Shown: one piece after another, positions 7,087-58,518 of the stretch
Layout: each line of letters begins with the position of its first letter
How positions within the stretch are numbered: position 1 is the first letter of the stretch
NCBI GenBank assembly: GCA_947494205.1
Contig: CANLUH010000001.1
Location: 372,001-436,000, forward strand
Length of the DNA stretch: 64,000 bases
Reading direction: 5' to 3'
From: an uncultured Flavobacteriaceae bacterium
GTDB taxonomy: Bacteria; Bacteroidota; Bacteroidia; Flavobacteriales; Flavobacteriaceae
Program-made: the position numbers and the translations under genes
The notes under the pieces: model-generated
Databases searched by the model: none
What the model saw: the letters and a program-made list of their open reading frames with translations, nothing else
Told to the model about the DNA's origin: nothing

Positions 7087-7986
7087 ATGTGGATGTATTT
7101 GGGCTTATTAGCCGCACTTTTTTTGGGTTTACATAATTTATGTAAAAAACATGCTGTACAAGGTAATGAAGTTTTCCCTGTACTTTTTGGCACTATTTCT
7201 TCGGGATTTTTATTACTGCTTCCTTTTTTTGTAAGTTCACTTTATTTTCCTGAGTATGCAAAAAAAGCAGGATTTTATATTACAAGAATTCCTTGGGAAA
7301 CACATGGGTTTATTTTTATAAAATCTATAATAATGACAACCTCATGGGTTTTGGCATATCAAGCTTTAAAACATTTACCCATAACTATTGTAACGCCTAT
7401 TCGTTCTGCCGGTCCGTTTTTTACTTTTATTGGCGCCATTTTAATTTATAAAGAGCAACCTAACATGTTGCAATGGATAGGTTTTTTCCTTATTATTTTT
7501 TCTGTAATAGGCTATTCTAAAATAGGCAAAAAGGAAGGTATTAATTTTAAAAGTAATAAATGGATATTTGCTATTATTGGAGCTACGTTTTTAGGTGCTT
7601 CTAGTGGTTTATATGACAAATTTTTAATACAGAACTTAGCACTAAACCCGCAAACATTACAGTTTTGGTTTTGTTGGCACACCATACTTATTTTATTTAT
7701 CATTCTATCTATAACATGGTTTCCTAATAAAGACAAGCGAAAAGCATTTAAATGGCGATGGACTATTATTGCTGTAGGGGTTTTATTAATAGCTGCCGAT
7801 TATTTCTACTTTAAAGCTTTACAAGACCCTGAAGCTCTAATTATGCTGCTATCTGCTATAAAAAGAAGTCAGTTAATAATTGCAGTAGTTATAGGAGGCA
7901 TTGTATTCAAAGAAAAAAATAAGCGTAAAAAACTACTTCCTTTAATGGGGATACTGATAGGTGTGTTTTTAATTTTGTACTCGTAA
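7087..7986 (+). CDS. EamA/DMT-family transporter
   Basis: The 299-residue protein is almost entirely hydrophobic, with about ten membrane segments in two repeated EamA halves (residues about 1-140 and 155-299). This is the usual size and build of drug/metabolite transporters. Each half ends in the family's GxxLIxxG/GILIGVFL-type helix. The substrate cannot be read from sequence; relatives export amino acids, nucleosides or drugs, or import metabolites. The gene stands alone on the plus strand between two minus-strand units. Confidence 0.85.
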   Translation: MWMYLGLLAALFLGLHNLCKKHAVQGNEVFPVLFGTISSGFLLLLPFFVSSLYFPEYAKKAGFYITRIPWETHGFIFIKSIIMTTSWVLAYQALKHLPITIVTPIRSAGPFFTFIGAILIYKEQPNMLQWIGFFLIIFSVIGYSKIGKKEGINFKSNKWIFAIIGATFLGASSGLYDKFLIQNLALNPQTLQFWFCWHTILILFIILSITWFPNKDKRKAFKWRWTIIAVGVLLIAADYFYFKALQDPEALIMLLSAIKRSQLIIAVVIGGIVFKEKNKRKKLLPLMGILIGVFLILYS

Positions 7987-8002
7987 GATGTTAAATCACT
8001 CC

Positions 8003-8062
8003 AATTTACACATAATCAAACTAATATTAAGAGATTCTTAGGTAATTGTTTATGTGTAAATT
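8003..8062. terminator. 13-bp inverted repeat between convergent genes
   Basis: AATTTACACATAA at 8003-8015 is matched perfectly in reverse complement at 8050-8062, with a 34-base spacer that itself contains a TAAGA/TCTTA mini-hairpin. It lies between the EamA gene and the convergent Nudix gene. A bidirectional terminator or a small palindromic element are both possible; there is no long T-run. Confidence 0.35.
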
Positions 8063-8144
8063 AAAGCTTTATATTAAACTAAGTTTACATAATTGAATAA
8101 GTTGGGTTATAATAGAAACTGCTGCTTTAATTTAACAATACATT

Positions 8145-8561
8145 TTAGTTAGCAATTCCTCTTTTTAAATAGAAAAAACGCTCTAAAGCATTCTTATCAG
8201 AAACTCCTAAATGCTGACATGCTTCTATCCAATTTACCCATTCTAAGGCATTAAATTTATGCGGTTCACGCAATAGGAACGTTTTTCGTATATCCTTTAA
8301 AAGAAAATAATGCCTAGTAAGTACAGGCTTCTTATTGTATACATTACAAAAGGTAGAAATGTATTCAAACTCATAATCATTTAAATGGACACCGACTTCT
8401 TCGAAGGTTTCACGTATTAAACACAGTTCTGGAGTCTCTCCTTTTTTTGAAAAACCTCCAATTAATCCATATTTCTTTTTAGGTGTATTTTTCCTTAATA
8501 CCAATACTTCAAAATCGCTTACTACAAGCAATCTTGATTTTTCTCTATGCTTTTTTTTCAT
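8145..8561 (-). CDS. Nudix hydrolase
   Basis: The 138-residue protein contains a complete Nudix box at residues 36-58 (G-x5-E-x7-RE-x-x-EE-x-G-V), including the metal-binding EE pair. Nudix enzymes hydrolyse nucleoside diphosphates linked to another group; which substrate is used here is not evident. Its ATG overlaps the stop of the preceding small gene by four bases (ATGA), so the two are translationally coupled. It is the last gene of the polyamine operon, so its substrate could relate to that pathway or to NAD metabolism; this is only contextual. Confidence 0.85.
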   Translation of the reverse strand: MKKKHREKSRLLVVSDFEVLVLRKNTPKKKYGLIGGFSKKGETPELCLIRETFEEVGVHLNDYEFEYISTFCNVYNKKPVLTRHYFLLKDIRKTFLLREPHKFNALEWVNWIEACQHLGVSDKNALERFFYLKRGIAN

Positions 8562-8821
8562 TCTGTAAAGTCATCTGTAAAATTACTTTCATCTACATTT
8601 ATATTCTCTTCGTAATTTTCTATAGAATCTGCCAATCGCTTGCTAACTTTTATCAAATAAATCGTGTCTTCTGTTCTAACTTCTACAGCTTCAATGATTT
8701 CATTTTTAGCATTTTTAAATTTAATAATATCCGAATCATCATAACCATCAGGGTATTTCTCTATTAAAAGTGCTAAAATATTTTGTGTTAGTTTTTGATA
8801 ATCAACAATTACTCTTTTCAT
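8558..8821 (-). CDS. Small acidic protein of unknown function
   Basis: I do not recognise this 87-residue protein. It is soluble, with no signal peptide or membrane segment. It begins with a helical, basic-hydrophobic segment (KRVIVDYQKLTQNILALL) and ends with a strongly acidic tail (ENINVDESNFTDDFTE). The centre is rich in alternating charged and hydrophobic residues, suggesting a small alpha/beta fold. It follows the deoxyhypusine-synthase-like gene by 13 bases and overlaps the Nudix gene by four, so it is clearly part of the operon. Reality as a gene is well supported by coupling on both sides. Confidence 0.7.
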   Translation of the reverse strand: MKRVIVDYQKLTQNILALLIEKYPDGYDDSDIIKFKNAKNEIIEAVEVRTEDTIYLIKVSKRLADSIENYEENINVDESNFTDDFTE

Positions 8822-44129: not shown

Positions 44130-44693
44130 ATGAAAAAAATATTAACTTTCTGTTTTCTCTTTTCATTACTAAGTGGATTTTCTCAAACTTTAAGTCAAAA
44201 AGAGTTTAATCTAATTTTAGAGGAAGTAAAAAATATTACACGCAATATAAAAAAGCCTCAAGATTTCAATGTATTTGCAGAACAATTAAACTTAAACAAA
44301 GAACAACTAAAAAAAATCATACAATCGTTTAAAGGTTTAGACTTAGATTTTAACAATCAAAATTCCAAGGACCATATTCTACCATTTTTCACTAAGTCGC
44401 AAAATGATAAATTTTTATTTCTCAATTTAGCCACCCTAACATCACACCCAACTAAAAGTAAAAAGGAGTTTCCACGTGGTACTTATTATTTCACATTTTA
44501 TTGTTATGTGGGAGTTGTAAATAATAAAGTTATTTTTAAAGGCGCTAAAGTTTTAAGCGAAGAAGACATTATCCATAAATGGTTTTTATCTATTTACCCC
44601 GTTTATTTAAAAGAAACAAAAATCATTCATAACAAATATAATTTTGTACCTCCCCCTCCATTTCCAGCCCCAATAAGCCTGAAACGAAATTAA
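44130..44693 (+). CDS. Small secreted protein of unknown function
   Basis: I do not recognise this 187-residue protein. It has a signal peptide (1-19, ending GFSQT), a helical segment up to about residue 75, then a beta-rich part with aromatic runs (YYFTFYCYVG) and a proline-rich end (PPPPFPAPI). No catalytic motif is evident. It begins 33 bases after engB on the same strand and could share its transcript. It is the last intact gene before the decayed permease fragment that marks the left edge of the accessory island. Confidence 0.65.
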   Translation: MKKILTFCFLFSLLSGFSQTLSQKEFNLILEEVKNITRNIKKPQDFNVFAEQLNLNKEQLKKIIQSFKGLDLDFNNQNSKDHILPFFTKSQNDKFLFLNLATLTSHPTKSKKEFPRGTYYFTFYCYVGVVNNKVIFKGAKVLSEEDIIHKWFLSIYPVYLKETKIIHNKYNFVPPPPFPAPISLKRN

Positions 44694-44828: not shown

Positions 44829-46166
44829 TTATTTTTTATAATACTCTAAAATCTTTATTTTAAAGATATAATCATATTTAGCTCTTATTAAATCGGATTC
44901 TTTTACAATATATTTCGCTTTACTTTCTAAAAACTCGTAAGATGTAACTAAGGCTTCTTGGTATTTATTTTTAACAATATTAAATGCCTCTTCTTGCGAT
45001 TCCATAGCTACCTTTGAAGCTTCTAAAGCTACTTTAGCGGTAATAACATCGTTGTATGCTATCTCTATTTTATTTTCTAATTCTTTTTTTTGATTTTCCA
45101 ATTCCACTTTAGCTATCTCTAATTGAACTTTGGATTTATCTATATTAGATTTTGTTTGAAACCTATTAAATATAGGTACACTTAAAGAGAACCCTAAGAA
45201 ATGGGTTCTGTTATTATCCAACTGCACAAGGAATCCATTGTCTTCAAATCGATTTGTTTCTGAATTAAAGACAACATCTTCTCTACCTTGTAAGTGGTAA
45301 TAACTACTACTGTAACTATAATTAAAGTTTATAGAAGGATACAAATCTGCTTTAGCGATTTTAACGCCTTTTTCATTAACATCTACAGCATACTCTGTAG
45401 ATTTTATTAATGGATTAAACCCTAATGCTTCTTCATATATTTTTTTAGAGTCTAATAGTGTTTCATTGTATTCAAAATCTTTAACATCTATTTCATAAAC
45501 ATCAAAATCTTTTATTGTTTTTACATCTAACAATGCCTGCAATTCTAATAAACTATTCTTTAGATTATTTTCCGCCACTAACACTTCTTTATTATCTGTA
45601 ACATATTCCGATTTTATTTCCAGGAATTCACTTTTAGAATTTAAGGCAGACTTAAATAATTGTTCTAGTCTATTTGCTTCTTTCTCACTAATTGTTTTTT
45701 GCTTTTTAGCTAATTCCAAGATCTCTTTATTATAAAGCACTTGTAAATATTGATTTGCAATAGTAAGCGAGACATCTAACTTCAGCTTCTCTAAATCTAC
45801 ATTACCCTTTTCTGAATTTAATCGCGCCTGTTGCAGCTTATACTTATTACTAAACCCATTAAATACATTTAGAGATGACGACAGACTAAAACTATTAAAT
45901 CTACTTTCTAGCTGCCCAACACCTGTAGACACATTAAAAGAATTACCTAAACTATAACCTTGTGTCCCCGAAAAACTTGCATTAGGATAGTAATTCCCCT
46001 TTGCTATAACGATATCTTCATTTATAGTTTTATTTTGAAACTTTTGTTTTACTATTTCGACACTATGCTCTTTTGCATGATTAGTACAATCTTCTAAAGA
46101 CCACTTATTTTGTGCTTTCACAGATACCGTAATCAAAATTAATAGAATGGAAAAGATAGATTTCAT
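44829..46166 (-). CDS. TolC-family outer-membrane efflux channel
   Basis: The 445-residue protein has a signal peptide (1-18, SVKAQ) and the two long helical-barrel repeats of TolC-family proteins, each with heptad-like hydrophobic spacing (about residues 110-215 and 330-440), plus beta-strand segments with alternating aromatics. It would form the outer-membrane duct of a tripartite pump. Its ATG overlaps the stop of the RND permease gene (TAATG), so the two are translated together. It is the only TolC gene in the window and presumably serves one or both RND pumps. Confidence 0.9.
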   Translation of the reverse strand: MKSIFSILLILITVSVKAQNKWSLEDCTNHAKEHSVEIVKQKFQNKTINEDIVIAKGNYYPNASFSGTQGYSLGNSFNVSTGVGQLESRFNSFSLSSSLNVFNGFSNKYKLQQARLNSEKGNVDLEKLKLDVSLTIANQYLQVLYNKEILELAKKQKTISEKEANRLEQLFKSALNSKSEFLEIKSEYVTDNKEVLVAENNLKNSLLELQALLDVKTIKDFDVYEIDVKDFEYNETLLDSKKIYEEALGFNPLIKSTEYAVDVNEKGVKIAKADLYPSINFNYSYSSSYYHLQGREDVVFNSETNRFEDNGFLVQLDNNRTHFLGFSLSVPIFNRFQTKSNIDKSKVQLEIAKVELENQKKELENKIEIAYNDVITAKVALEASKVAMESQEEAFNIVKNKYQEALVTSYEFLESKAKYIVKESDLIRAKYDYIFKIKILEYYKK

Positions 46167-49100
46167 TACTTCGTTTTTTTACTAAAAGTGTAATACATTA
46201 AAGGTATAAAATAAAGACTTATAAAGGTCCCTATTAACATACCCCCTATTACTGTTAATGCTAATGGTTTTTGTAATTCTGCTCCTAGGCCATTTATAAA
46301 CAAGAATGGCAGTAATGCTAATATAGTAGTTAACGATGTCATTAAAATAGGCTTTAACCTTAACTTACCGGCTTCCTTAATCGCTTTTTTAACATCCATA
46401 CCTTGTTTTTTCAACAAATTGATTGTGTGGATTTTTAAAATACTGTCATTAATTATAACACCACTCATTACAACTATTCCTATTGCTGCCATAACATTAA
46501 TAGTCCCTCCAAATAACCATAATAAAAATAGCGCGCCGCCAATATCTATAGGAATTTCCATTAGTATTATTAACGGTTGCCATAAAGATTCGAATTGAGC
46601 AGCCATTATAAAGTAAAGTAATAGTAAAGCGACTATAATAACCATTAACAGTTGATTACTAAGTGCATTTAATTCTAACCAGCTTCCTCCAAAACGAACA
46701 TTAAAATCTTCATTGTCTTTAAATGTATTTTGTATAGTACTTATGCTATTTTCAACAGTTTCTTTTTCATTAATATTAAAATTTAAATACTCACCGTTTC
46801 TATTTGCGACTATGGTTTTATATTGCTGAATATTACTAATCTTAATTAATTTTTTAACAGGAATGTATGCTTCATTTTTATTCCTTACAAACAATCCATC
46901 TATAGCGTCTTGCATGTCTTCCACATTATAGTTTAATTTAATAGGAATAAACTGTTGTGCTGTTTTTAAATTATCTATAAAGTTTTGATTAAACGTCGTT
47001 TTTAACTCTTCTACCAAAACATCATACTCAACATTATACAACAATACATTTTCTTGAATTATTTGAATAGATGCCGTCTGTTTAAGAGGTATTTTTGTTT
47101 CTGTCTCTTGAGACAAAAGAGACGTGATATCTACTAAATTATCTTCGGCTGGCACTTCTAAAGATGTTTTAGAACTTACTTGAGCTACAAGCTTACTTTT
47201 ATTAGTACCAAATAGGTATTGAAAAATGGTTTTAGGCGCATTAAAACCAATTTTACTGTTAGGGTATACTATTTTACTTTGTTTTAAAATAGCTTCTTTA
47301 ATAGCTTTTAATTCTGAAACTGTTGTTGACTTAATATATACTGCTGCTTCCGAAAAACCTTTAGCATTATCCCTTTGCAATAAAAACTGTTGTTCTCCTA
47401 TTTGAGAAAATTGAGTCTCTATATTTGAAATCGTTTTAGTAATCTCATTAATTCGTTTTTGATTTTCGGCTACTGTTATGTTTTCATTCCAATCTATAGT
47501 GACAATGGTTTCATTCTGTTTTATTAATGGCAATTGCGAATAGGGCATTGTTTTAAATAAAAAAACGGCAACGCCTATACTTATTATGGATATTGAATAT
47601 ACTATCCATTTTTTTTCAAAAAAGTAATAATAGCCTTTTTCGTACCAATGCTCTATATTTTGGGTTCTTAAGTTAAATTGAAGCTTCTTTTCGAATTTAA
47701 ATTTTCTGTTTTTTAATTGTTTATAGATTACCGGTATTAAAATAATAGAAACAATTAAAGACGATATTAAACCAATAGATACTGCTACTGCTTGATCATA
47801 AAACAAAGCGCCAGTTATACCACTTAAAAATAATAATGGTAAGAACACAGAACATGTTGTTAAAACAGAACTTATAAGTGGTGTAATAATTTCGTTTGTT
47901 CCTTCTACACAGGATTGAAAAAGGCTTAAACCAGATTCTAGTTTTTGTGTTATATTGTCTACAACAATAATAGCATTATCTATCATCATACCTACTCCTA
48001 AAATTAAACCAGAAAGCGAAATGATATTTATAGATAAGTTAAAGCTATACATTAATAATATACTTACTATTAGAGATACTGGTATGCTTATACCTATAAT
48101 TAAAGGCAGTCTTACATCTTTAAGAAAAAAGAACATAATAAATATAGCCAATAGACTCCCTATCCATAAACTAGATTTTAAGTTATCTATAGATAATTTT
48201 AATAATTGTGTTTGATCTTGATTGGTTGAAAACTCTAAGTTAGGGTAATCTTCTTTAAGACTATCTGTTAGTATTTTTAAAGCTTCTTTTAATTCGTAAA
48301 CTCTAGCGTCTGCTTGCTTAATAATTGCTAGTACAATAGCTCTTTTACCATTATTATAAACTAGACCTCTATCTAATTGAGGCTTTAACTCTACTTTTGC
48401 TAAGTCTTTTAATTGAAATAGTTTATCGTGAAGATTTATATATATATCACTAATATCCTTTTTAGTTCGAAGTGGGTTAGAGAACTTAAAATTATATTGA
48501 TAGATTCCATTTTGAACAATTAAATTACCTAACTCGAAATTATTTTGCTTTATAGCATTAATAAGTTCGTTATTATCTATACCTAAACTTTGTATTTTAT
48601 TTTTATATGGCGTTACTATTATTTCTGCTTTGGTTTGACCATTCATATCTGCCATAGCGATGTCCGGCAGTTGCTCTATACGTTTTTTTAATATGGTTTC
48701 TGTAAACTCACTTAACTCTAAAAAACGTTCATCGCTATATTGCTCCTTTAAAGATACTGTTAGATTTAAAATAGGAATATCTGTAGCAGATGCTTTTATT
48801 ACTTTAGGCCTATCTAAATCTCGTGGTAAATAGTTAAGCGAACCATCTACTTTTTCATTGGTTTCTATAAAGGCGTAATCTGTATTAGTACCATACTCGA
48901 ATATCAATTTTAAGGTTGCAAAACCATCTCTAGTTTCTGTTTCTATATCTTTTAAATTTGCAACTTGTAATAACTGATTGCGTAATGGCCTTACTACATT
49001 AGTTTCTAGCTCTCTTGCTGTGTTATTAGGGTAAACAAGCTGTACTGTTATTTCTGGTATAGCAATGTCTGGCATTAATGCCGTAGGTATTTGCAAAGAC

Positions 49101-49177
49101 GCTACAATACCTAGTAATAAGAACGCAAAGGTTGCCATAAATACAGCAACCGGTCTGTTAATGAGGAACTTTACCAA
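46166..49177 (-). CDS. RND-family efflux permease
   Basis: The 1003-residue protein is an AcrB/HAE-type inner-membrane proton antiporter: first membrane segment at the N-terminus, large periplasmic loop, a helix block with GVGMMIDNAIIVVDN (about residue 396; the family's proton-relay Asp followed by Asn), a second loop, and a second helix block. It is a little shorter than AcrB. The start is TTG at 49177 (then VKFLINRPVAVFM, the typical RND start); upstream the frame is closed by a stop at 49187-49189. The substrate is unknown; the peptide and lipoproteins upstream suggest a dedicated export role. Confidence 0.92.
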   Translation of the reverse strand: MVKFLINRPVAVFMATFAFLLLGIVASLQIPTALMPDIAIPEITVQLVYPNNTARELETNVVRPLRNQLLQVANLKDIETETRDGFATLKLIFEYGTNTDYAFIETNEKVDGSLNYLPRDLDRPKVIKASATDIPILNLTVSLKEQYSDERFLELSEFTETILKKRIEQLPDIAMADMNGQTKAEIIVTPYKNKIQSLGIDNNELINAIKQNNFELGNLIVQNGIYQYNFKFSNPLRTKKDISDIYINLHDKLFQLKDLAKVELKPQLDRGLVYNNGKRAIVLAIIKQADARVYELKEALKILTDSLKEDYPNLEFSTNQDQTQLLKLSIDNLKSSLWIGSLLAIFIMFFFLKDVRLPLIIGISIPVSLIVSILLMYSFNLSINIISLSGLILGVGMMIDNAIIVVDNITQKLESGLSLFQSCVEGTNEIITPLISSVLTTCSVFLPLLFLSGITGALFYDQAVAVSIGLISSLIVSIILIPVIYKQLKNRKFKFEKKLQFNLRTQNIEHWYEKGYYYFFEKKWIVYSISIISIGVAVFLFKTMPYSQLPLIKQNETIVTIDWNENITVAENQKRINEITKTISNIETQFSQIGEQQFLLQRDNAKGFSEAAVYIKSTTVSELKAIKEAILKQSKIVYPNSKIGFNAPKTIFQYLFGTNKSKLVAQVSSKTSLEVPAEDNLVDITSLLSQETETKIPLKQTASIQIIQENVLLYNVEYDVLVEELKTTFNQNFIDNLKTAQQFIPIKLNYNVEDMQDAIDGLFVRNKNEAYIPVKKLIKISNIQQYKTIVANRNGEYLNFNINEKETVENSISTIQNTFKDNEDFNVRFGGSWLELNALSNQLLMVIIVALLLLYFIMAAQFESLWQPLIILMEIPIDIGGALFLLWLFGGTINVMAAIGIVVMSGVIINDSILKIHTINLLKKQGMDVKKAIKEAGKLRLKPILMTSLTTILALLPFLFINGLGAELQKPLALTVIGGMLIGTFISLYFIPLMYYTFSKKTK

Positions 49178-49254
49178 ATGTATTAATTATTCAACTAGTT
49201 ATAAAGCATGAAAATAGTAATAACCCCGCAGCCTACCAAAATTTAAACTAGACT

Positions 49255-49677
49255 TTATTCTGTTATATTTTTAACAACAGTCCCTGTTACAAAAAGTTGT
49301 TTTGGCCCTTTTTGACTATTATAGTATACTAATACTTCTTTAGAAAAATAACCTAGTCCTTTGGCATCATAATATACTGCTAAACTATCTGTATTATTTT
49401 CTTCCAACCTCTCTTTATCCCAATTTGCTACTGTACAGCCACATCTAGATTGAACATCCTCTAGAACAAGCGGAGCATTTCCTATATTAGTATACTTAAA
49501 AAAGGTTTTAACTTCTTTTCCTTGAGGAATTGTACCAAAATCGTATATGTTTTGTTTCACTCCCATTATCGTTAAATGTCTGTTTTTGAAAAAGTCGGAT
49601 TTCCCAAATTGCAAGCCTCCAACAATCGCTAAAGCCAAACAAGCTATATAGAATAATCTTTTGTATGTTTGTTTCAT
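49255..49677 (-). CDS. DUF1573 domain protein
   Basis: The 140-residue protein has one N-terminal membrane anchor or signal (about 8-22) and an immunoglobulin-like DUF1573 domain: YDFGTIPQGKEVKTFFKYTN, the SRCGCTV cysteine pair (about residue 88), and a beta-strand tail. DUF1573 proteins are exported and common in Bacteroidota; none has a settled function. It starts one base after the propeller lipoprotein gene stops and lies 77 bases before the RND gene, firmly inside the island operon. Confidence 0.85.
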   Translation of the reverse strand: MKQTYKRLFYIACLALAIVGGLQFGKSDFFKNRHLTIMGVKQNIYDFGTIPQGKEVKTFFKYTNIGNAPLVLEDVQSRCGCTVANWDKERLEENNTDSLAVYYDAKGLGYFSKEVLVYYNSQKGPKQLFVTGTVVKNITE

Positions 49678-49678
49678 A

Positions 49679-50737
49679 CTAATTTAAATCTACTTTATAA
49701 CGATATAACGCTTCATTATAAGCATCTACTCCATAAATCCAATTATTCTTTTCATCTACTGAAATACTTATTAAATCATTAGGCATTTTCAATAAATATT
49801 TTGGATTCCCATCCCAATCAAAGACTCTAACATCTACATTTATATCCTTTTTTCCATTATCCGATACAGGTTGCCCCTTTCTATACAAAGCATACACATA
49901 TTTATTTGTAGGGTAAAGTGAATAGTAAAAGTTACGCATATTTATTAATTGATTACCATCTTTATGTAAAATATTTTTTACGTCTTTAACTTCGTTCCCT
50001 TCTGTTTCAATTATAGCATTCAAATGATTTAAATTTAAATCGTAGAAATCTATTCGATTAAAACTAGACATAGCTGACACTAATTTTGTTTTGTCTGGTT
50101 TTATTGCTAAATAGTCAAAATATAAAGCATACATATTACTTCTATTTATTAAATCTGTATTTTCCAAAACAGGTAACAAATTCGCTTTTACTTCAACATC
50201 ACTCCCTATGTTATATTTTGAAACTCTAGATCGGCCTATTTGATCTGGTCCATGATTGCCATAAAAAAGGGTGTCATTATAATGTATTAAATCGTGTGTA
50301 AAATCGTATTTGGGGTTTAACTTAAATTCTTTTTCAGCTATTGTCTTTCCACTATCAAGACTTTTATTGATATTTACGAGAGACAATTTATATTTCCATA
50401 AATCATTCATCCAAATCTTTATGCCATCTTTGTCAACCACGAATTGCTTACTTGTATAAGGATATGAAAAATCATTAGGTCCATCTCCCTTTATACCAAA
50501 AGCACCTAAAAAATTTAAGTTTTTGCTACCAAAAACCTTAAATAAGGAATCCTTATTTTTTGTTTGCAGTATTAATAAAGTATCTGTTAAAACTATATTT
50601 CTTGACGAATATTCGTCCTTAAAAATAAGTTCACCTTTATCTAAACTAATAGTCTTTTCAAAACTTATATTATTAATTTCACTATTACAGCTATAAAACA
50701 ACAAGCCAAAAAAAATATATTTTATATATTTCCTCAT
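49679..50737 (-). CDS. Six-bladed beta-propeller lipoprotein (TolB-like)
   Basis: The 352-residue protein has a lipoprotein signal (LLFYSCNSE, Cys16) and a repeated beta pattern typical of the Bacteroidota six-bladed propeller family, with blade segments such as GAFGIKGDGPNDFSYPY, FDWDGNPKYLLKMP and IYGVDAYNEALYRYKV. Such lipoproteins are often encoded beside small NVEALA-type peptides, as here, where the peptide gene lies 70 bases upstream. A binding or chaperoning role for the peptide is inferred from this context. A terminator-like hairpin (50759-50786) sits between the two genes. Confidence 0.82.
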   Translation of the reverse strand: MRKYIKYIFFGLLFYSCNSEINNISFEKTISLDKGELIFKDEYSSRNIVLTDTLLILQTKNKDSLFKVFGSKNLNFLGAFGIKGDGPNDFSYPYTSKQFVVDKDGIKIWMNDLWKYKLSLVNINKSLDSGKTIAEKEFKLNPKYDFTHDLIHYNDTLFYGNHGPDQIGRSRVSKYNIGSDVEVKANLLPVLENTDLINRSNMYALYFDYLAIKPDKTKLVSAMSSFNRIDFYDLNLNHLNAIIETEGNEVKDVKNILHKDGNQLINMRNFYYSLYPTNKYVYALYRKGQPVSDNGKKDINVDVRVFDWDGNPKYLLKMPNDLISISVDEKNNWIYGVDAYNEALYRYKVDLN

Positions 50738-50758
50738 AACATTATATTAGTCATTAAA

Positions 50759-50786
50759 ATATAGCACCAATTAGATGGTGCTATAT
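50759..50786 (-). terminator. Terminator/attenuator hairpin between peptide and propeller genes
   Basis: ATATAGCACCA pairs perfectly with its complement around ATTAGA, followed on the coding strand by a short T-run (TTTT). It lies 22 bases after the peptide stop and 21 before the propeller start. Partial termination here would give more peptide transcript than partner transcript. Confidence 0.7.
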
Positions 50787-50807
50787 GAAATATTTTTTAT
50801 CAAATCT

Positions 50808-51044
50808 TTATTTCCCACAAACACCAGAAGGTCCACTATGTATTCCGTCTACCTTTGGACATATGTTTTGTACCCTCTTACAATCACGAAACCAAGCCCC
50901 TTCGTTAAGACCTGAACTAGCAGAATAACAAGTTATAGTTTCTACATCTCCAATTTTCTTAGCCTCAGCATTATTAACAGAAAATAACGAAGCTACTGCA
51001 AAACAACCTACCATAGCAATTGCAAATACACTTTTTTTAATCAT
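50808..51044 (-). CDS. Small secreted cysteine-containing peptide, NVEALA-like
   Basis: I choose the ATG at 51044, giving 78 residues: a signal sequence (MIKKSVFAIAMVGCFAVASL) ending SVNNAEAKK, then a mature part of about 45 residues with four cysteines (ITCYS, FRDC, NIC, GVCGK) and many glycines. The VNNAEA segment resembles the VNVEALA signature of small Bacteroidota exported peptides. An ATG 14 codons earlier lies inside a leader hairpin. The island's pumps, propeller lipoprotein and signal peptidase make this the probable cargo or signal. Family assignment is from pattern only. Confidence 0.72.
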   Translation of the reverse strand: MIKKSVFAIAMVGCFAVASLFSVNNAEAKKIGDVETITCYSASSGLNEGAWFRDCKRVQNICPKVDGIHSGPSGVCGK

Positions 51045-51069
51045 AATATTTATATTTTTAAAGTTAAAA

Positions 51070-51090
51070 GCAAATGGGATTTCCATTTGC
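51070..51090 (-). promoter_or_regulatory. Leader hairpin of the peptide gene
   Basis: GCAAATGG and CCATTTGC form a perfect 8-bp stem around GATTT, 26 bases upstream of the chosen peptide start. Being near the 5' end of a short transcript, it may stabilise the message or control translation. Confidence 0.5.
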
Positions 51091-51102
51091 TGAATTGAAT
51101 TG

Positions 51103-51110
51103 TAAATATA
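51103..51110 (-). promoter_or_regulatory. TATATTTA -7 box of the peptide gene
   Basis: Differs from TAnnTTTG at the last base only. It lies 59 bases upstream of the peptide start and would place the hairpin at the 5' end of the transcript. Confidence 0.45.
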
Positions 51111-51406
51111 ACTTTTTTACTCTCTTTTTATTGTCGGAAAATATACTTTTAAGAATAAATTATATAAAAGTACATGTTAACGATTTAATATGAAGAAGAT
51201 TGAACGTTATTAAATAATCTTCTTAAAAAATAATAGATTCTGATTGTCCGTTTTGTATCATAATGCTACTCATAACACTATACTAAACTTGTTTCAGCAT
51301 CACATAACACCTAAAAAAACATGGAGGCTTCATGGTGAGAACCAGAAACAGGTTCAGGTCAACAATATACTTTATGATTTATTACGGATATTCAAAATAG
51401 ATTAAA

Positions 51407-52468
51407 TTAATTCTCCTTTACCTTCACTTTGGCATCATGCGATAAATTCATATTGTTAGATACAATAACAACGTTTCCTTTTTTAAGCCCCTTTTTAATA
51501 GCATAACTACTACTATTTTCATCTAAAAGCTCAACGTAGTTCCATTTTGCTAAACCATCTTCTACTGTAAAAACAACTTCTTTATTAGAGCGCAATACTA
51601 AGGCTTGCTTAGGCACCACTATACAGTTCTCTATAGGTTTATTAATAATAGTTTTTACATGCATTCCATCAAACAACATACTTTTTGAAGTTTCTAGCCT
51701 TGCTTTAATAGCAATTAATCCATTTTCATCTACTATAGGGTTAACTTCCGTAATACGTCCTTTAATAACAGTATTATTATTAGCAAATGGAATTACTGTT
51801 ACCGCTTGACCTTTATTAACAAAAGGCAACTCGTTTTCTAAAATTGAGAATTTAGCTTCTAATTGCTGCTGCCCTACAATAGAACAAAAGACATCGGCAG
51901 ATGTTATATAATTTCCTTGCTTAACCTCTATATTCGCCACAACTCCATTAAAAGGTGCTACAACTATAGTTTGATTATATAATAACTGTGCTTTTTCTAA
52001 TGCATTTTGCGCCTCGTAATACCCACTTTTAATTTTTAAGTTTTTTAAAACTTTTGCTTCTATTTTTTCCTCTTCTAAACTACCTACACCATAGTTTATT
52101 TTTTCTTCTTGTAATTTACTTTTTGCTTTATCTAAATCTAATGTTGCTCTATTTAAATCATTTAATAAAATAGCATTATCTAAAACAGCTAATGTTTGTC
52201 CTTTTTTTACTTTATCACCATTTTTAACTTTTAAACTTGCTATACGCTCGCTAGTTTTAAAACGCAGTTCCGTTTTTTTTAGCGCTTCTATTGTTCCATT
52301 AGCTATAATTTGTTTTTGAAACACCTGTTCTTCAACAACTACCGTACTAACAGATACGCCTTCGTTTTCAGTTATTTTAATTTCCTTTTCTTGTTCTTGG
52401 GATACATTAGTTTCTTTAGTATTACAACTGCATAAAACCAAGATTAACAGGAATAGTATATTGCGCAT
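51407..52468 (-). CDS. RND periplasmic adaptor (membrane fusion) lipoprotein
   Basis: The 353-residue protein has a lipoprotein signal (LVLCSCNTK, Cys15) and the layout of HlyD/AcrA adaptors: beta-barrel and lipoyl segments with VKNGDKVKKGQTLAVLDN (about residue 80), a short helical hairpin (about 100-150), the second lipoyl half VVAPFNGVVANIEVKQGNYI (about 170), and a membrane-proximal domain. It would link an RND permease to TolC. It is the only adaptor in the island, which has two RND permeases, so it may serve both or only one. Confidence 0.92.
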   Translation of the reverse strand: MRNILFLLILVLCSCNTKETNVSQEQEKEIKITENEGVSVSTVVVEEQVFQKQIIANGTIEALKKTELRFKTSERIASLKVKNGDKVKKGQTLAVLDNAILLNDLNRATLDLDKAKSKLQEEKINYGVGSLEEEKIEAKVLKNLKIKSGYYEAQNALEKAQLLYNQTIVVAPFNGVVANIEVKQGNYITSADVFCSIVGQQQLEAKFSILENELPFVNKGQAVTVIPFANNNTVIKGRITEVNPIVDENGLIAIKARLETSKSMLFDGMHVKTIINKPIENCIVVPKQALVLRSNKEVVFTVEDGLAKWNYVELLDENSSSYAIKKGLKKGNVVIVSNNMNLSHDAKVKVKEN

Positions 52469-52538
52469 AAATGTGGTTATTAAATAATAATACTAAAATA
52501 GATGTATTATTTTAAATATTAGAGAATATTGTATATTT

Positions 52539-52973
52539 CTAGTTAATGTTTAATAGTTCTTCTTTAAAAACAACAACATCTATAACTTCTCCTTCTTCTA
52601 CATAAATTATTTGAGGATATATTGAAGACATCTCCCCTTTAAACAACTCATTATTAGCATCTATAAAAACATCTGATCTATTTAAAAATGTATTATTTAC
52701 CTGTAGTTTAAATAATTTAAGATCTTTTATTCCTGTAAAAATAACGCAAGTTGAATTATTTAAAGCATCTATATGCTCTATCATATAGCGTGTTGCGTTA
52801 CTAATACAACCTCCGCAACCTTCATTTGGTATTACAACTACTGTTTTAGGTGAAGCTAAATTGATGCCAATAGTATTAAATGACTCTTGAAAAATTTTAT
52901 ACTTCGTATTGTTAACACAAGACATATATAACACCATAACGAAAAGTATCGTTAACACCTTTACAAGCTTCAT
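52539..52973 (-). CDS. Small lipoprotein with CGGC thioredoxin-like motif
   Basis: A 144-residue protein, taking the ATG at 52973 (a TTG one codon earlier is also open). The lipoprotein signal ends in VLYMSC. After residue 45 the segment VVVIPNEGCGGCISNA puts a CxxC pair after a beta strand, as in thioredoxin-fold proteins. Further strands (CVIFTGI, SDVFIDANNELFKG, QIIYVEEGEVIDVVVF) fit a minimal thioredoxin-like domain. It could act on the disulfides of the four-cysteine peptide; that is inference. It is 3 bases after the DUF4221 gene and 70 before the adaptor. Confidence 0.7.
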   Translation of the reverse strand: MKLVKVLTILFVMVLYMSCVNNTKYKIFQESFNTIGINLASPKTVVVIPNEGCGGCISNATRYMIEHIDALNNSTCVIFTGIKDLKLFKLQVNNTFLNRSDVFIDANNELFKGEMSSIYPQIIYVEEGEVIDVVVFKEELLNIN

Positions 52974-52976
52974 CAA

Positions 52977-54167
52977 TTAGCTTTTTTTTATAGGATTAAA
53001 CACACTAAAAGTAATTTCATCCTCGTTAGTATTATACAAATCTTTTCTTGCTATTAAAAGCCCCTTATCTGTTACACCTACTGTATTATTATCATAAACA
53101 GAACTAGAGAATACTTGTTCTCCTAGTTTTTCAAAGTTTTTATTTAAGATAATAATAGAAAAATCAGGAAAAACAACACCCCTCCTTTTTTCCTCAAGTG
53201 TGGGTCTAACAAGTGCAAATCGATAATAGTAATTGTTATACTCATCGTAAATTATCCTAAAATAATCTGAATTAGTCAAACTAAATTCATCTTCTTGCTT
53301 AAAGTTTCTATCTTGTTTAAAAGCATACTCTAAATCTAGTCTCATAGGTTCTACCGTTTTAAAATGTTTAGACCCTACATAAACACTATCTTTAGTTTTA
53401 TTTTTTAAATCTACCGAGTACACAAATGGAGACACAGGATAGGTCAATGTCATTTTTTCATTGTTTGTATCGAAATAAAAATATGTTAAATATCGAAATG
53501 AAGACCCCCAAAAATCTTTATTGTATAAATCTGGAAAAGGCACAATATAATCTGTCGTTTCTTTTTTTAAATCGTACTTAAGAATCATCCCATAATCTGA
53601 ATAATCATTCTGGGGTTGGCTTAAGCTACAACTAAAGTAAGCTACATTATTAAATACGACAAAAGGATTAATACCAGACGGCTCAGGTGAAGGAAAAGCC
53701 TTTCCTGTTTTATAATCTTTAATTTTATGTTTTGATTTAATATTACCTAAACTATCTAAATTAAATAGTGTTGCAGTATATTCATTGTAGTAGTAAAAAT
53801 CATTTTCATTTTTAAATAAATGTGCTGAAACTCCTGAAAGATTCCCAACACCATTTCTACCTTCTTCTTTTAAGACTATTTTTTTAATTTTTCTATTTTT
53901 TAAATTGTAATAGACTATAGATTTTTCATATTCATTTAAAAAAGAGTAATAATAATCTGAACTAGTGTTAGATTTATTAAAACCAAAAGAATAATGACGA
54001 AAAGCGGAATTTTTATCTAAAGGTAGTGTTATTTTTTCTACTTCTTCAAAGGCTACAACATCATTAAAAACAGCTCCATTATCTTCTTGATAAAAAGGAT
54101 CATAACTTGTTGTTTTTGCGCAACCAAGCATTATAAAGAAGAGGATATAATTGTAATAATTTTTCAT
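52977..54167 (-). CDS. DUF4221-type lipoprotein
   Basis: The 396-residue protein has a lipoprotein signal (LFFIMLGCAKT, Cys16) and a long beta-propeller-like body with repeated aromatic strands (SDYYYSFLNEYEKSIVYYN, DFYYYNEYTATLFNLDS). This fits the Bacteroidota DUF4221 family, which shares its character with the six-bladed propeller lipoproteins. No catalytic residues stand out. It is the first minus-strand gene of its group; a terminator-like hairpin (54189-54217) lies in its leader, and the second RND gene diverges from the same gap. Confidence 0.75.
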   Translation of the reverse strand: MKNYYNYILFFIMLGCAKTTSYDPFYQEDNGAVFNDVVAFEEVEKITLPLDKNSAFRHYSFGFNKSNTSSDYYYSFLNEYEKSIVYYNLKNRKIKKIVLKEEGRNGVGNLSGVSAHLFKNENDFYYYNEYTATLFNLDSLGNIKSKHKIKDYKTGKAFPSPEPSGINPFVVFNNVAYFSCSLSQPQNDYSDYGMILKYDLKKETTDYIVPFPDLYNKDFWGSSFRYLTYFYFDTNNEKMTLTYPVSPFVYSVDLKNKTKDSVYVGSKHFKTVEPMRLDLEYAFKQDRNFKQEDEFSLTNSDYFRIIYDEYNNYYYRFALVRPTLEEKRRGVVFPDFSIIILNKNFEKLGEQVFSSSVYDNNTVGVTDKGLLIARKDLYNTNEDEITFSVFNPIKKS

Positions 54168-54188
54168 ATATTATATTAAAAACTCAAA

Positions 54189-54217
54189 AAAATGGATAGT
54201 TTAAAACTATCCATTTT
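54189..54217 (-). promoter_or_regulatory. Hairpin with T-tract in the DUF4221 gene leader
   Basis: AAAATGGATAGTTT and its complement face each other across a single A, followed on the minus strand by a run of T. It lies 21 bases before the DUF4221 start and looks like a terminator or attenuator between divergent promoters. Confidence 0.6.
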
Positions 54218-54350
54218 AATTTAAACCTCTAAGATATAGGCTATTTTTTAATTTAAAATACTTTTCTATTTAAATAACAAATCTTTCTTAACCATAAAAA
54301 ACAATACAGTAACCATAATTTTTTAATAAGTTTACATTAAATTAAAATTA

Positions 54351-57300
54351 TTGAGACTCTCTCCTTTTAAAATATTTACAATAAGCATTATATTAACAAT
54401 ACTAGGTTTTTTCATTTTACCTAAATTATCTGTTAAATTAAACCCTAGTGCATCTTTACCTTCTATTACTGTTAATTATAGTTGGAATGATGCCTCACCA
54501 TACACTTTAGAACGGGATGTAACCTCTAAACTAGAAGCTGGCTTTGCAACTTTAAAAGGCTTAGAAAAGTTAGATTCTAAAAGTTCTAAGGGTTCTGGCT
54601 ACATTACACTATCTTTTAATAAAAATATAAATTTAGACATTGTTCGCTTCGAAACTGCAACAATTATTAGACAGTTATACAAACAATTACCAGAACAGGC
54701 TAGTTACCCAACTTTAAGTGTTAATAGGCCAGATGCAGATGAATCCTCTGCTATTTTATCTTATAGTATTAAAGCGCCTAAAAGCACTTACGAAATACAA
54801 AAAACGGTTACATCTAAAATACAGCCTATTATTAATGCTATACAACATGTAGATAAAACAGAAGTTTATGGTGCTAACCCACAAGAATATCTTATTCTTT
54901 TTGATCATTTTAAATTAAATACTTTAAAATTGACCAAGCAGGATTTGGTTACGGCATTACAGCAGTCTGTTAAAAGAGAAAATTTAGGTAGTGTTAATTA
55001 TAACAACAACCACATAACGCTTTCTTTGCAACCATTAAACAAAACCACAAATTGGCATATACCTGTAAAAAAAATAAACAATAGAATTATCTATCTCGAT
55101 GAAATAACCACTATTAAAAAACAAGAAGAAGAGGCTAAAACACATTATAGAATTAATGGTGAAAATGCCATTACTATAAATATTTACGCCACTAAGCAGG
55201 CTAACACAATAGCACTAGCAAAAACAGTAGATGATAATATTTTTAGCATACAGAAAAACATCCCTGAAGTCTATAACATAGTTAAAACCTACGACAGCAC
55301 TTCTTTTTTAAAAGCGGAACTCAATAAAATATACGAGCGTTCTGCATATACCATACTTATTCTATTACTTTTTATTTTATTAGTAAGTAAAAGTGTTAAG
55401 TATTTACTTATTACACTATTAACACTTATAACCAATATAAGTATTGCATTTCTTTTATACTATGCCTTTAATGTAGAACTTCAATTATACTCTTTAGCTG
55501 GTATAACCATATCCTTAGGTTTAATTATAGATAACAGTATTGTTATGATAGACCACATAAGGCATTTAAACAATAAAAAAGTATTTGTTCCTATTTTAGC
55601 TTCTACATTAACAACTGCGGGAGCTTTAAGTGTTATTTACTTTTTAGACGATAAATACAAAGTAAATCTTATCGATTTTGCAATAGTTATCATTATTAAT
55701 CTTTCTGTTTCTCTTGCTACTGCTTTATTTTTAATCCCTGCTTTAATACAAAAAATTAAACTATCTAATAAGCAAGAAAAAAAATGGAGTTTAAAAGTAA
55801 AACAGCATTTCTATAACATTTACAATAACATTATTACTACTCTATTAAGGTACAAAAAAACGGTTATTATTATTATAGTTCTTGTTTTTGGTATTCCTTT
55901 TTTTATGCTCCCAGAAAAACTAGAGAGTAACACTGCATGGTACGAAAAAACATACAACAATACTATTGGTAGCGAATGGTATAAAGAAACCCTAAGGCCT
56001 TATGTTGATATTTACTTAGGTGGCTCGTTTAGACTTTTCAATTTTTATGTATTTGATAATGCATCCTATGCAAAAAATGAAGAAACTAAATTGTATGTTT
56101 CTGCCTCTATGGAAAAAGGCGCTACTGTAGAGCAAATGAATACCGTATTTTTAGAAGTAGAAAACTATATAAAGCAATTTAATGAAATTAAGTTATTTAC
56201 TACCAATATATATAGTGGCGAATACGCAAGATTAGAGATTAGCTTTAAACCAGAGTTTTCTAACTCCTCCGTGCCTTTTATATTAAAATCGCGCTTAATT
56301 AGAAAAGCTCTAGATTTTGGCGGTATGGATTGGAATATTTACGGTGTTGGTAAAGGATTTAATAATGGAAGTAGTAATGGAGAACCCACTAATTTTTCTG
56401 TTAAAGCAAAAGGCTATAACTACGACCAATTAAATGTCTGGGCAGATAGTTTAAAAATAACTTTAGAAAAACATCCTAGAATACAAAAAGTGCTGATACG
56501 CGAAAATAGCTTTTGGGCAGAAGAACCTTCTTTTGAATATCGTTTTAAAGTAGACAAGCAAAAACTAGCCTTAGCAAACGTATCTCCTTCAAAAATAATA
56601 GATGAATTAAAACAATTATCACTTTCTAAACAACAAGACTTAGCTTTAAATATTGATGGTAAATATAGCCCTATTCGTTTTGAGTCTATGGCTTCTAAAG
56701 CATTCGATATTTGGCATATTAAAAATACACCTTTAGACAGTTTAAACAAACCTATTACACTAAATGGTATTGCAAAAATAACTAAAGAGCGGGCAGACGA
56801 GAATATTTATAAAGAAAACCAAGAATATATTAGACTAGTACAGTTTCAATACACTGGTTCTGCTAAGTTTGGATCTAAATTTTTAAACGAACAATTAAAA
56901 TTACTAGAGACAAAATTGCCATTAGGTTATACTTTTGAACGCGCCAACAGACAATGGTTTTTAAATCAAGACAAAAATAACAACTATGCTTTTTTATTGG
57001 TTTTAGTATTAGGTATTATTTATTTAATATGCGCCATTTTATTTGAAAGTTTTAAACAACCTTTTATTATACTTAGTGTTATTCCTATTTCTTTTATAGG
57101 CGTATTCTTAACCTTCTATTGGTTTGATTTTAATTTCGACCAAGGTGGCTTAGCTAGTTTTGTATTATTAAGTGGTATTACTGTTAATGCTTCTATTTTT
57201 ATTATTAATGGATTTAATAAATTAAAAAAAGAACAGCCAGACAAAGACATGATACTACTTTATCTAGAAGCTTTTAAACAAAAAATATTTCCGATAATGC

Positions 57301-57464
57301 TAACCATAGTATCTACTATTTTAGGTTTTATACCTTTTGTAAAAGATGGACAAAACGAGGTTTTCTGGTTTGCCCTAGGCGTAGGAACTATTGGTGGTTT
57401 GATATTTTCTTTAATTGGTATTTTATTTTACTTACCTATTTTTACTCTAAAAAAAACTAATTAA
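54351..57464 (+). CDS. Second RND-family permease
   Basis: The 1037-residue protein is a full-length RND transporter, opening LSPFKIFTISIILTILGF, with two periplasmic loops and two helix blocks; SLGLIIDNSIVMIDH (about residue 387) is the central proton-relay helix. It is clearly different from the pump at 46166-49177, so this is not a recent duplication. The start is TTG at 54351; a stop at 54327-54329 closes the frame and no ATG lies between. It diverges from the lipoprotein genes and converges with the signal peptidase gene, overlapping its end by 8 bases. No own adaptor or TolC gene is near. Confidence 0.92.
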   Translation: MRLSPFKIFTISIILTILGFFILPKLSVKLNPSASLPSITVNYSWNDASPYTLERDVTSKLEAGFATLKGLEKLDSKSSKGSGYITLSFNKNINLDIVRFETATIIRQLYKQLPEQASYPTLSVNRPDADESSAILSYSIKAPKSTYEIQKTVTSKIQPIINAIQHVDKTEVYGANPQEYLILFDHFKLNTLKLTKQDLVTALQQSVKRENLGSVNYNNNHITLSLQPLNKTTNWHIPVKKINNRIIYLDEITTIKKQEEEAKTHYRINGENAITINIYATKQANTIALAKTVDDNIFSIQKNIPEVYNIVKTYDSTSFLKAELNKIYERSAYTILILLLFILLVSKSVKYLLITLLTLITNISIAFLLYYAFNVELQLYSLAGITISLGLIIDNSIVMIDHIRHLNNKKVFVPILASTLTTAGALSVIYFLDDKYKVNLIDFAIVIIINLSVSLATALFLIPALIQKIKLSNKQEKKWSLKVKQHFYNIYNNIITTLLRYKKTVIIIIVLVFGIPFFMLPEKLESNTAWYEKTYNNTIGSEWYKETLRPYVDIYLGGSFRLFNFYVFDNASYAKNEETKLYVSASMEKGATVEQMNTVFLEVENYIKQFNEIKLFTTNIYSGEYARLEISFKPEFSNSSVPFILKSRLIRKALDFGGMDWNIYGVGKGFNNGSSNGEPTNFSVKAKGYNYDQLNVWADSLKITLEKHPRIQKVLIRENSFWAEEPSFEYRFKVDKQKLALANVSPSKIIDELKQLSLSKQQDLALNIDGKYSPIRFESMASKAFDIWHIKNTPLDSLNKPITLNGIAKITKERADENIYKENQEYIRLVQFQYTGSAKFGSKFLNEQLKLLETKLPLGYTFERANRQWFLNQDKNNNYAFLLVLVLGIIYLICAILFESFKQPFIILSVIPISFIGVFLTFYWFDFNFDQGGLASFVLLSGITVNASIFIINGFNKLKKEQPDKDMILLYLEAFKQKIFPIMLTIVSTILGFIPFVKDGQNEVFWFALGVGTIGGLIFSLIGILFYLPIFTLKKTN

Positions 57465-58518
57465 AAAGTCGTTCTCTAGAAAAAGGCACTATCATTTTAC
57501 CTTGTATATAACTTTCTGGAATAAAACCAAAACTTCTTGAATCTAAGGAACTATGTCTATTATCTCCCATCATAAAATAATAGTTATTTAAAAAGGTATA
57601 CTCTAATTCCTCACCCTGCTCTAAGTTTAATTCTTTATTTTCAAAATTATATATAAGTGTCCTATATAAATCAAAATTATCTCCATTTAAAATTATCGTC
57701 ATTCCTTTTTTAGGAATAACGATTTCCCCATAATTATCTCTAGTCCATCTTTTTTTACTCGCTAAAGGATAAGGAAACAAGTTATTTCTTCTCTTTTTAG
57801 ATGGGTTAATTTTCACCTTCTTTTTGTAACTATTTCTTTCTTTACTATTCAATTCGTTAAACTCTTTATTAGAGAATGTTTTTACAACTCCTTTTTTAGT
57901 ACTATCCACATAACTGTAACAATATGTTCCTTTTTCTTTTAACTTCTTTTGATTTATAAACACCTTAGCATTCTCTATTTTAAGAGTATCTCCTGGCATT
58001 CCTATAATACGTTTTATTAAAAACATATCATTTTCTTCTATAGATTTAAAAACAACTATATCTCCCTGATTATATGCCTTAAATGGCTTCAAGGACTTAT
58101 ACAAATCAAATTCAAACAAGCTTCCATTCTTTTTAAAAAACACACCTATAACTGGTATATCTTGAATTCTTTTAGGGACTTTTGTCCCATAAGTTATTTT
58201 ATTAATCAGAACATAATCATTAGGAAACAACGTACGCTCCATAGAACTAGATGGCACAAAATAAACATCGAAGAAAAAAGTCCTAACAAATATTGCGACT
58301 AGTATAGGAGCGACTAAATAAAAACTATATTTTAAAAATTTACACAACGTATTAGGTAGTTTCTTTTTCAAGAACGTTGTAGTAAATTTAATTGTTACTA
58401 CTTCTGCCAAGACAATAATTATTAGCGAAACTAAAATTAAACCAGACCACAAAAAGAACAGACCTATTATAAATAATAATAAAATGAAAAGAATACGTTT
58501 ACGATACTTTACCTGCAT
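57457..58518 (-). CDS. lepB: Signal peptidase I
   Basis: The 353-residue inner-membrane protease has two or three N-terminal membrane segments, then VPSSSMERTLFPNDYVLINK (catalytic Ser about residue 94), DMFLIKRIIGMPGD (catalytic Lys about residue 170) and the C-terminal MMGDNRHSSLDSRSFG box. Between them lies a long basic insert (about residues 210-265) seen in Bacteroidota LepB. It removes signal peptides on the outer face of the membrane. Its place at the edge of the peptide/RND island suggests it may process the peptide, but it may equally be a general LepB. It converges with the second RND gene. Confidence 0.9.
   Translation of the reverse strand: MQVKYRKRILFILLLFIIGLFFLWSGLILVSLIIIVLAEVVTIKFTTTFLKKKLPNTLCKFLKYSFYLVAPILVAIFVRTFFFDVYFVPSSSMERTLFPNDYVLINKITYGTKVPKRIQDIPVIGVFFKKNGSLFEFDLYKSLKPFKAYNQGDIVVFKSIEENDMFLIKRIIGMPGDTLKIENAKVFINQKKLKEKGTYCYSYVDSTKKGVVKTFSNKEFNELNSKERNSYKKKVKINPSKKRRNNLFPYPLASKKRWTRDNYGEIVIPKKGMTIILNGDNFDLYRTLIYNFENKELNLEQGEELEYTFLNNYYFMMGDNRHSSLDSRSFGFIPESYIQGKMIVPFSRERLFN

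Follow-up and report, generated by a model that had tools for sequence, protein, structure and literature searches.

What would place a small exported peptide with four cysteines beside two unlike RND permeases and a second signal peptidase, within one short segment of a flavobacterial genome? The window that we analysed is a stretch of 64,000 nucleotides from an uncultured Flavobacteriaceae bacterium (contig CANLUH010000001.1, positions 372,001 to 436,000), and it carries at 44829-58518 a 13.7-kb accessory island between the core genes engB and dppC. We think it probable that this island encodes a system dedicated to maturing and secreting a disulfide-bonded peptide, in which a propeller protein has an immunity-like role.

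Gene content and site of the island

An earlier note, made from the sequence letters, had described a ten-gene accessory island here. Each of these genes is intact and lies at the stated coordinates; Pfam and NCBIfam profiles name eight of the ten, and neither the CGGC lipoprotein nor the 78-aa peptide matches a family in these two collections. The order on the minus strand starts with a six-bladed propeller lipoprotein of the DUF4221 family (52977..54167; PF13970, 1.6e-25), which has no peptide gene of its own here, followed by the CGGC thioredoxin-like lipoprotein with its invariant CxxC (52539..52976) and the RND periplasmic adaptor (MFP), also a lipoprotein (51407..52468; RND_mfp, TIGR01730, 1.5e-51). 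After a gap come the gene for the 78-aa precursor peptide (50808..51044), recognised from its sequence, and directly downstream of it a TolB-like six-bladed propeller lipoprotein (49679..50737; PF15869, 3e-11), a DUF1573 Ig-like protein with a CGC motif (49255..49677; PF07610, 1e-27), RND permease 2 (RND2; 46166..49177; ACR_tran, 3.7e-170) and, overlapping the latter by 1 base, a TolC-type outer-membrane channel (44829..46166; Pfam OEP, 1.4e-51). RND permease 1 (RND1; 54351..57464; ACR_tran, 5.7e-108), which serves as the marker gene of the system, lies divergently on the plus strand, and the accessory signal peptidase I, LepB (57457..58518, minus strand; TIGR02227, 4e-39), is convergent with it and represents a second copy in the genome.

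Between the peptide and the TolB-like propeller we found a perfect hairpin of 11 bp with T-rich sequence behind it (50759..50786, minus strand), which looks attenuator-like, and a 9-bp inverted repeat lies in the untranslated leader, shortly before the peptide start (51069..51091, minus strand). A perfect 14-bp hairpin with a T run (54189..54217, minus strand) directly precedes the DUF4221 gene and may be a relic of the attenuator of a lost peptide gene.

Two congeneric genomes retain both flanks of the site, ctpA-dppC and engB, at 80-92% identity, but carry other genes between them. Since the content of the engB-dppC gap differs in these congeners, the island, LepB included, is an accessory insertion relative to both. 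At the same site the congeners carry two paralogous secreted proteins of ~805 aa (L084 4140-9044; L085 4229-9161), and the engB edge of the island encodes a secreted 187-aa protein without a family (44130-44693) that is likewise missing from both. The space between engB and dppC seems to be a variable site.

The gene set recurs around one clade of RND permeases

A direct search with the 78-aa window peptide returned the peptide itself as the sole match. Because the core is too variable for a peptide search, we used the pump as bait: a profile of the RND1 clade found members in 13 of 392 Bacteroidota genomes, in 15 of 350 genomes of the window's family and in 28 of 151 genomes of a family that is Bacteroidales-type by its NVEALA content (f25). 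In a FastTree tree of 74 permeases, which has long branches, RND1 forms one clade against the controls with support 100, and the RND2 partners form one clade, again with support 100, against 20 other RNDs. The two clades are separate, but their members are usually adjacent and share one adaptor.

MdtB is the nearest solved relative of RND1. The proton relay of AcrB consists of an Asp-Asp pair and a Lys. Among the permeases listed for comparison, RND1 and RND2 tend to have Asp-Asn and Asn at the corresponding positions of TM4 and TM10, and by motif reading the equivalent of K940 is Asn, unlike in most of the control RNDs listed; we do not base any conclusion on this pattern. To our knowledge, no RND pump has been established for ribosomal peptides of 30-60 aa.

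We then compared ~20 kb around members of the RND1 clade (56 loci) with 20 other RND permease loci of the same genomes, using mechanically called ORFs. At least one peptide gene followed by a propeller gene was present at 20 of the 56 RND1 loci and at none of the 20 controls (p=0.0009), counts that come from related genomes and so are not fully independent. Propellers were found near RND1 at 32 of 56 loci (1/20 in the controls), LepB at 23 (0/20; p=0.0004), a CxxC thioredoxin-like lipoprotein at 18 (0/20) and DUF1573 at 9 (0/20; p=0.1), and a TolC homologue was present at 35 of the 56. The earlier note had made its reading depend on the gene set co-occurring elsewhere, and it does co-occur: RND genes are significantly associated with the genes for peptide, propeller, CxxC lipoprotein and LepB.

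This linkage extends over at least five families, and the gene set is found in Flavobacteriaceae, Arcicella, Pseudarcicella and further families. Arcicella and Pseudarcicella, whose RND1 relatives show 39-42% identity, have the order peptide, DUF4221, CxxC lipoprotein, adaptor and RND2 with a divergent RND1, with one extra gene between the CxxC gene and the adaptor in Arcicella. A Flavobacteriaceae MAG has the same arrangement on a contig that stops before adaptor and RND2. LepB and the CGGC protein are frequent at RND1 loci, not universal, and many Bacteroidales-type RND1 operons lack a peptide gene within 8 kb.

Peptide cores are variable and match their propellers

The window peptide has a leader of ~28 aa that ends in N-A-E-A, followed by a core of 50 aa; four cysteines lie in the core, beyond the signal peptide, and one inside it. 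We could not reproduce the mature length of 45 residues proposed before, as a cut at A-E-A after residue 28 leaves 50. Related loci have similarly built peptides ahead of their propellers, and the leaders of these peptides, with signal peptides called by a crude ad hoc rule, finish at A-x-A-like sites. This site lies ~15-25 residues beyond the hydrophobic stretch in NVEALA peptides and ~11 residues beyond it in the window peptide. Within one array the leaders are alike (mean similarity 0.38-0.90) but the cores are not (0.11), and among 83 paired peptides the number of core cysteines was even in 71 and odd in 12, even counts being what disulfides would predict.

We collected 80 peptide-propeller pairs for similarity tests. 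Across genomes, core similarity predicted propeller similarity (r=0.51, against 0.13 +/- 0.08 in within-genome shuffles; p=0.0005), and the link held after removal of near-identical cores (0.25 against 0.07 +/- 0.03; p=0.0005). Among the 20 most similar of the core pairs left after this removal, 75% had propellers of the same class, compared with a background of 24%; comparisons of f25 with all the other genomes gave a weak signal (p=0.03). These data suggest co-evolution of the mature peptide with the propeller, which is probably the cognate partner of that core, a role that the earlier note had not proposed. Leader similarity, on the other hand, had no predictive value for propeller similarity (p=0.76), which disfavours the propeller as a maturation factor that recognises the leader.

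Known surface-export motifs provide a basis for placing the propellers on one side of the outer membrane. Two or more acidic residues follow the lipobox in 9 of 69 propellers and are missing from most, so that these lipoproteins probably face the periplasm and not the outside. A peptide gene is not directly upstream in 58 of 132 propellers, and sampled loci of a single genome hold up to 8 different pairs with almost unrelated cores.

The DUF4221 protein scores 90.8 bits against its family (PF13970, cut-off 23.4), its profile matches the solved structure 3s9j (1.6e-63), and the structural model (pLDDT 88) superimposes on 3s9j with TM 0.76-0.82; by model as well as by profile, the protein is a predicted propeller. 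Ten of the 12 DUF4221-positive genomes are RND1-positive. Some DUF4221 genes are solitary and far from any RND gene, and one family of the same class has DUF4221 propellers, single or in tandem, outside RND loci and without peptides (L087-L092). Because of such tandem peptide-less genes in some genomes, DUF4221 alone is no marker of the system.

Candidate maturation enzymes

The accessory LepB has the features of a signal peptidase I, with a Ser/Lys dyad and PSxSM and KR boxes, and scores 134 bits against TIGR02227 (cut-off 47); Ser92 and Lys169 are invariant in the 15 accessory LepBs compared. The genome's other LepB is a protein of 584 aa encoded on contig C16. Within the window's family, 12 of 15 RND1-positive and 2 of 15 RND1-negative genomes have an accessory LepB, and one of these two exceptions (G020) has the order peptide, DUF4221, CHGC protein and LepB. 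Cassettes of this kind are seen at locus L050 (peptide-DUF4221-CHGC-LepB) and at L265 (peptide-propeller-thioredoxin-LepB), and in genome G708 units of peptide, propeller, thioredoxin and LepB are repeated. We rejected the idea that LepB is a chance neighbour, as it lies inside the insertion, is a second genomic copy and recurs at RND1 loci. Long-spacer leaders are typical of NVEALA peptides and of the 'ANAE' leaders of Flavobacteriaceae; a need for LepB just for such leaders is a loose link, since the window and G087 have LepB together with short leaders.

In the CGGC lipoprotein both CxxC cysteines are invariant across 17 relatives. Its AlphaFold2 model (pLDDT 89) finds its best matches among thioredoxin/ResA structures (TM about 0.48), so that the predicted fold is thioredoxin-like, of the ResA/DsbE kind. 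The earlier proposal that LepB cleaves the signal and that the CGGC protein makes the disulfides agrees with the LepB dyad read from the sequence, the modelled fold and the mostly even cysteine counts.

Relation to NVEALA peptides

In the 151 genomes of f25, NVEALA peptides (PF14055) are present in 16 of 28 RND1-positive and 7 of 123 RND1-negative genomes (p=3e-9), and counted by genus in 9/10 against 1/20. Of the seven genomes that seem to break this pattern, two (G476 and G551) have a weaker RND1 beside their peptides. NVEALA peptide and propeller arrays often adjoin an operon with the order LepB, Wzy_C protein, adaptor, RND2, TolC and RND1. The window peptide itself gave no match to PF14055 at E 0.1 (cut-off 27 bits), and PF14055 was not detected in the whole source genome; peptides at related RND1 loci do reach the cut-off. 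The label 'NVEALA-type' used in the earlier note is therefore apt for anatomy and neighbourhood, but not as membership of the Pfam family. Like NVEALA peptides, the window peptide combines a leader of the conserved type, ending in an A-x-A site, with a variable cysteine core and a downstream propeller gene, and NVEALA arrays lie beside the same RND1/RND2 operon; it differs in its shorter leader, which lacks the spacer before the A-x-A site.

Transmembrane proteins with a C-terminal OmpR-type winged helix are encoded in or beside NVEALA arrays of eight genomes (L217-L224, L270) and at no control locus; the window yielded none. Other clusters repeatedly contain small HTH genes.

A proposed pathway and alternative explanations

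In the pathway that we propose, Sec would export the precursor and the accessory LepB would cut the leader at the A-x-A site. The CGGC thioredoxin-like lipoprotein, perhaps with help from the DUF1573 protein, would assist in pairing the core cysteines, and the two unlike RND permeases with one adaptor and TolC would take the mature peptide from the periplasm to the outside. The downstream propeller lipoprotein would bind its particular mature core in the periplasm, most likely for immunity or neutralisation, and the peptide would then act on competitors. We prefer competition because of the hypervariable cores, the many pairs that share one pump, the many propellers with no peptide directly upstream and the patchy distribution.

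Peptide signalling is the main rival on account of the membrane-bound winged-helix regulators in the f25 arrays. With the same maturation and export, the core would be a pheromone, the propeller its specific receptor or carrier, and the membrane-bound proteins the regulators; the small HTH genes would also fit, and core-propeller matching suits a receptor no less than an immunity protein. However, we detected no such regulator in the window, the rarity of the acidic motif points to propellers that face the periplasm, and as many as eight pairs with nearly unrelated cores in one genome are more than expected of a pheromone, which makes signalling somewhat unlikely in our view. The propeller might instead act as an escort for its own peptide, loading it into the pump or the disulfide enzyme, and be neither an immunity protein nor a receptor; such a role would account for its core specificity and its periplasm-facing position by motif, and different escorts would let one pump serve many cores, but the frequent propellers without a directly upstream peptide fit spare immunity genes better, and we judge this function unlikely.

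Very unlikely, finally, is an ordinary drug or metabolite exporter that shares an island with a peptide, a propeller and LepB as unrelated cargo. Both permeases are recognisable AcrB-type RNDs, islands do gather unrelated genes, and some RND1 operons have no peptides near them; yet the associations are significant against control RND loci from the same genomes and repeat in several families, NVEALA and RND1 co-occur genome-wide, and random cargo cannot yield matching between cores and propellers. Peptide secretion with a cognate immunity-like propeller is the reading that we carry forward. It can tentatively be widened, further than we would yet commit ourselves, to an undescribed phylum-wide system in which paired proton-driven RND permeases, together with a private LepB and disulfide enzyme, export libraries of folded mini-proteins, NVEALA peptides included, each with its own propeller: a polymorphic peptide/partner system with a logic like that of toxin-immunity arrays.

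Comparison with known systems

The E. coli peptide STII, which passes through Sec and DsbA and is secreted by MacAB-TolC, offers a mechanistic precedent (PMC5985334). STII is a short cysteine-rich peptide with a Sec signal that is cleaved, given its disulfides in the periplasm and ejected by a tripartite TolC pump, and a similar course would follow from the genes of the island, which by sequence anatomy and gene content include a Sec signal, a cysteine core and a tripartite TolC pump. A MacB-type ABC energiser is not among them, and two RND permeases stand in place of this engine; conversely, neither a dedicated signal peptidase nor a cognate propeller is described for STII in that paper.

Bacteroidetocins are likewise small four-cysteine peptides of Bacteroidota, and their clusters need a thiol oxidoreductase of their own; Bacteroides, as the authors note, are without the general disulfide machinery (PMC6671954). 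The CGGC lipoprotein, by its modelled thioredoxin-like fold, would be the counterpart of this dedicated enzyme. In bacteroidetocins, however, a double-glycine leader is cut and the peptide exported by a peptidase-containing ABC transporter, and no immunity protein was found (PMC6671954), whereas the island combines a Sec leader ending in N-A-E-A with LepB, RND permeases and a cognate propeller and contains no ABC exporter.

In its pump genes the island resembles MdtABC-TolC with its heteromeric MdtBC, as both have one adaptor, two unlike RND permeases and TolC; a pump of this kind would hold RND1 and RND2 in one mixed trimer. The known substrates of MdtABC-TolC are small molecules. Unlike the island, that system has no peptide, peptidase or propeller genes.

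Our search of the open-access literature, preprints excluded, found no paper describing the system, which is not proof of novelty, and in the same literature we found no relevant paper on NVEALA peptides or on DUF4221, TolB-like or DUF5128 propellers. The gene system is conserved and apparently undescribed, and by analogy may work like the Sec/Dsb/TolC route of the E. coli peptide with a different engine; a partner protein beside each peptide suggests a bacterial weapon or signal, of which such partners are typical. NVEALA peptides and DUF4221, TolB-like and DUF5128 propellers are widespread Bacteroidota families, and their proposed link to one dedicated exporter, one peptidase and one thiol enzyme turns several families into one testable pathway. 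If the proposal is true, RND-TolC pumps would be peptide secretion machines, and a large number of peptides from gut and marine bacteria would come with probable cognate partners.

Further genes at the clusters

At 15 loci the RND operon has next to it a gene for a TPR-containing Wzy_C (O-antigen ligase) protein (for instance L163 1025-2731 and L159 18858-19901), which perhaps glycosylates the peptide or the propeller. Another recurrent gene, at 9 loci, encodes a ~650-aa lipoprotein with a weak match to the F5/8 C-type domain (L185 587-2572; L219 10757-12703). Directly downstream of a small HTH-free stretch beside an array peptide, locus L222 encodes a radical-SAM-like protein (7661-8674; CxxxCxxC, recognised by eye), and peptides in arrays such as this one may be further modified. 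Near the RND1 cluster of G087, a different small peptide has a GG-type leader (L037 16444-16665).
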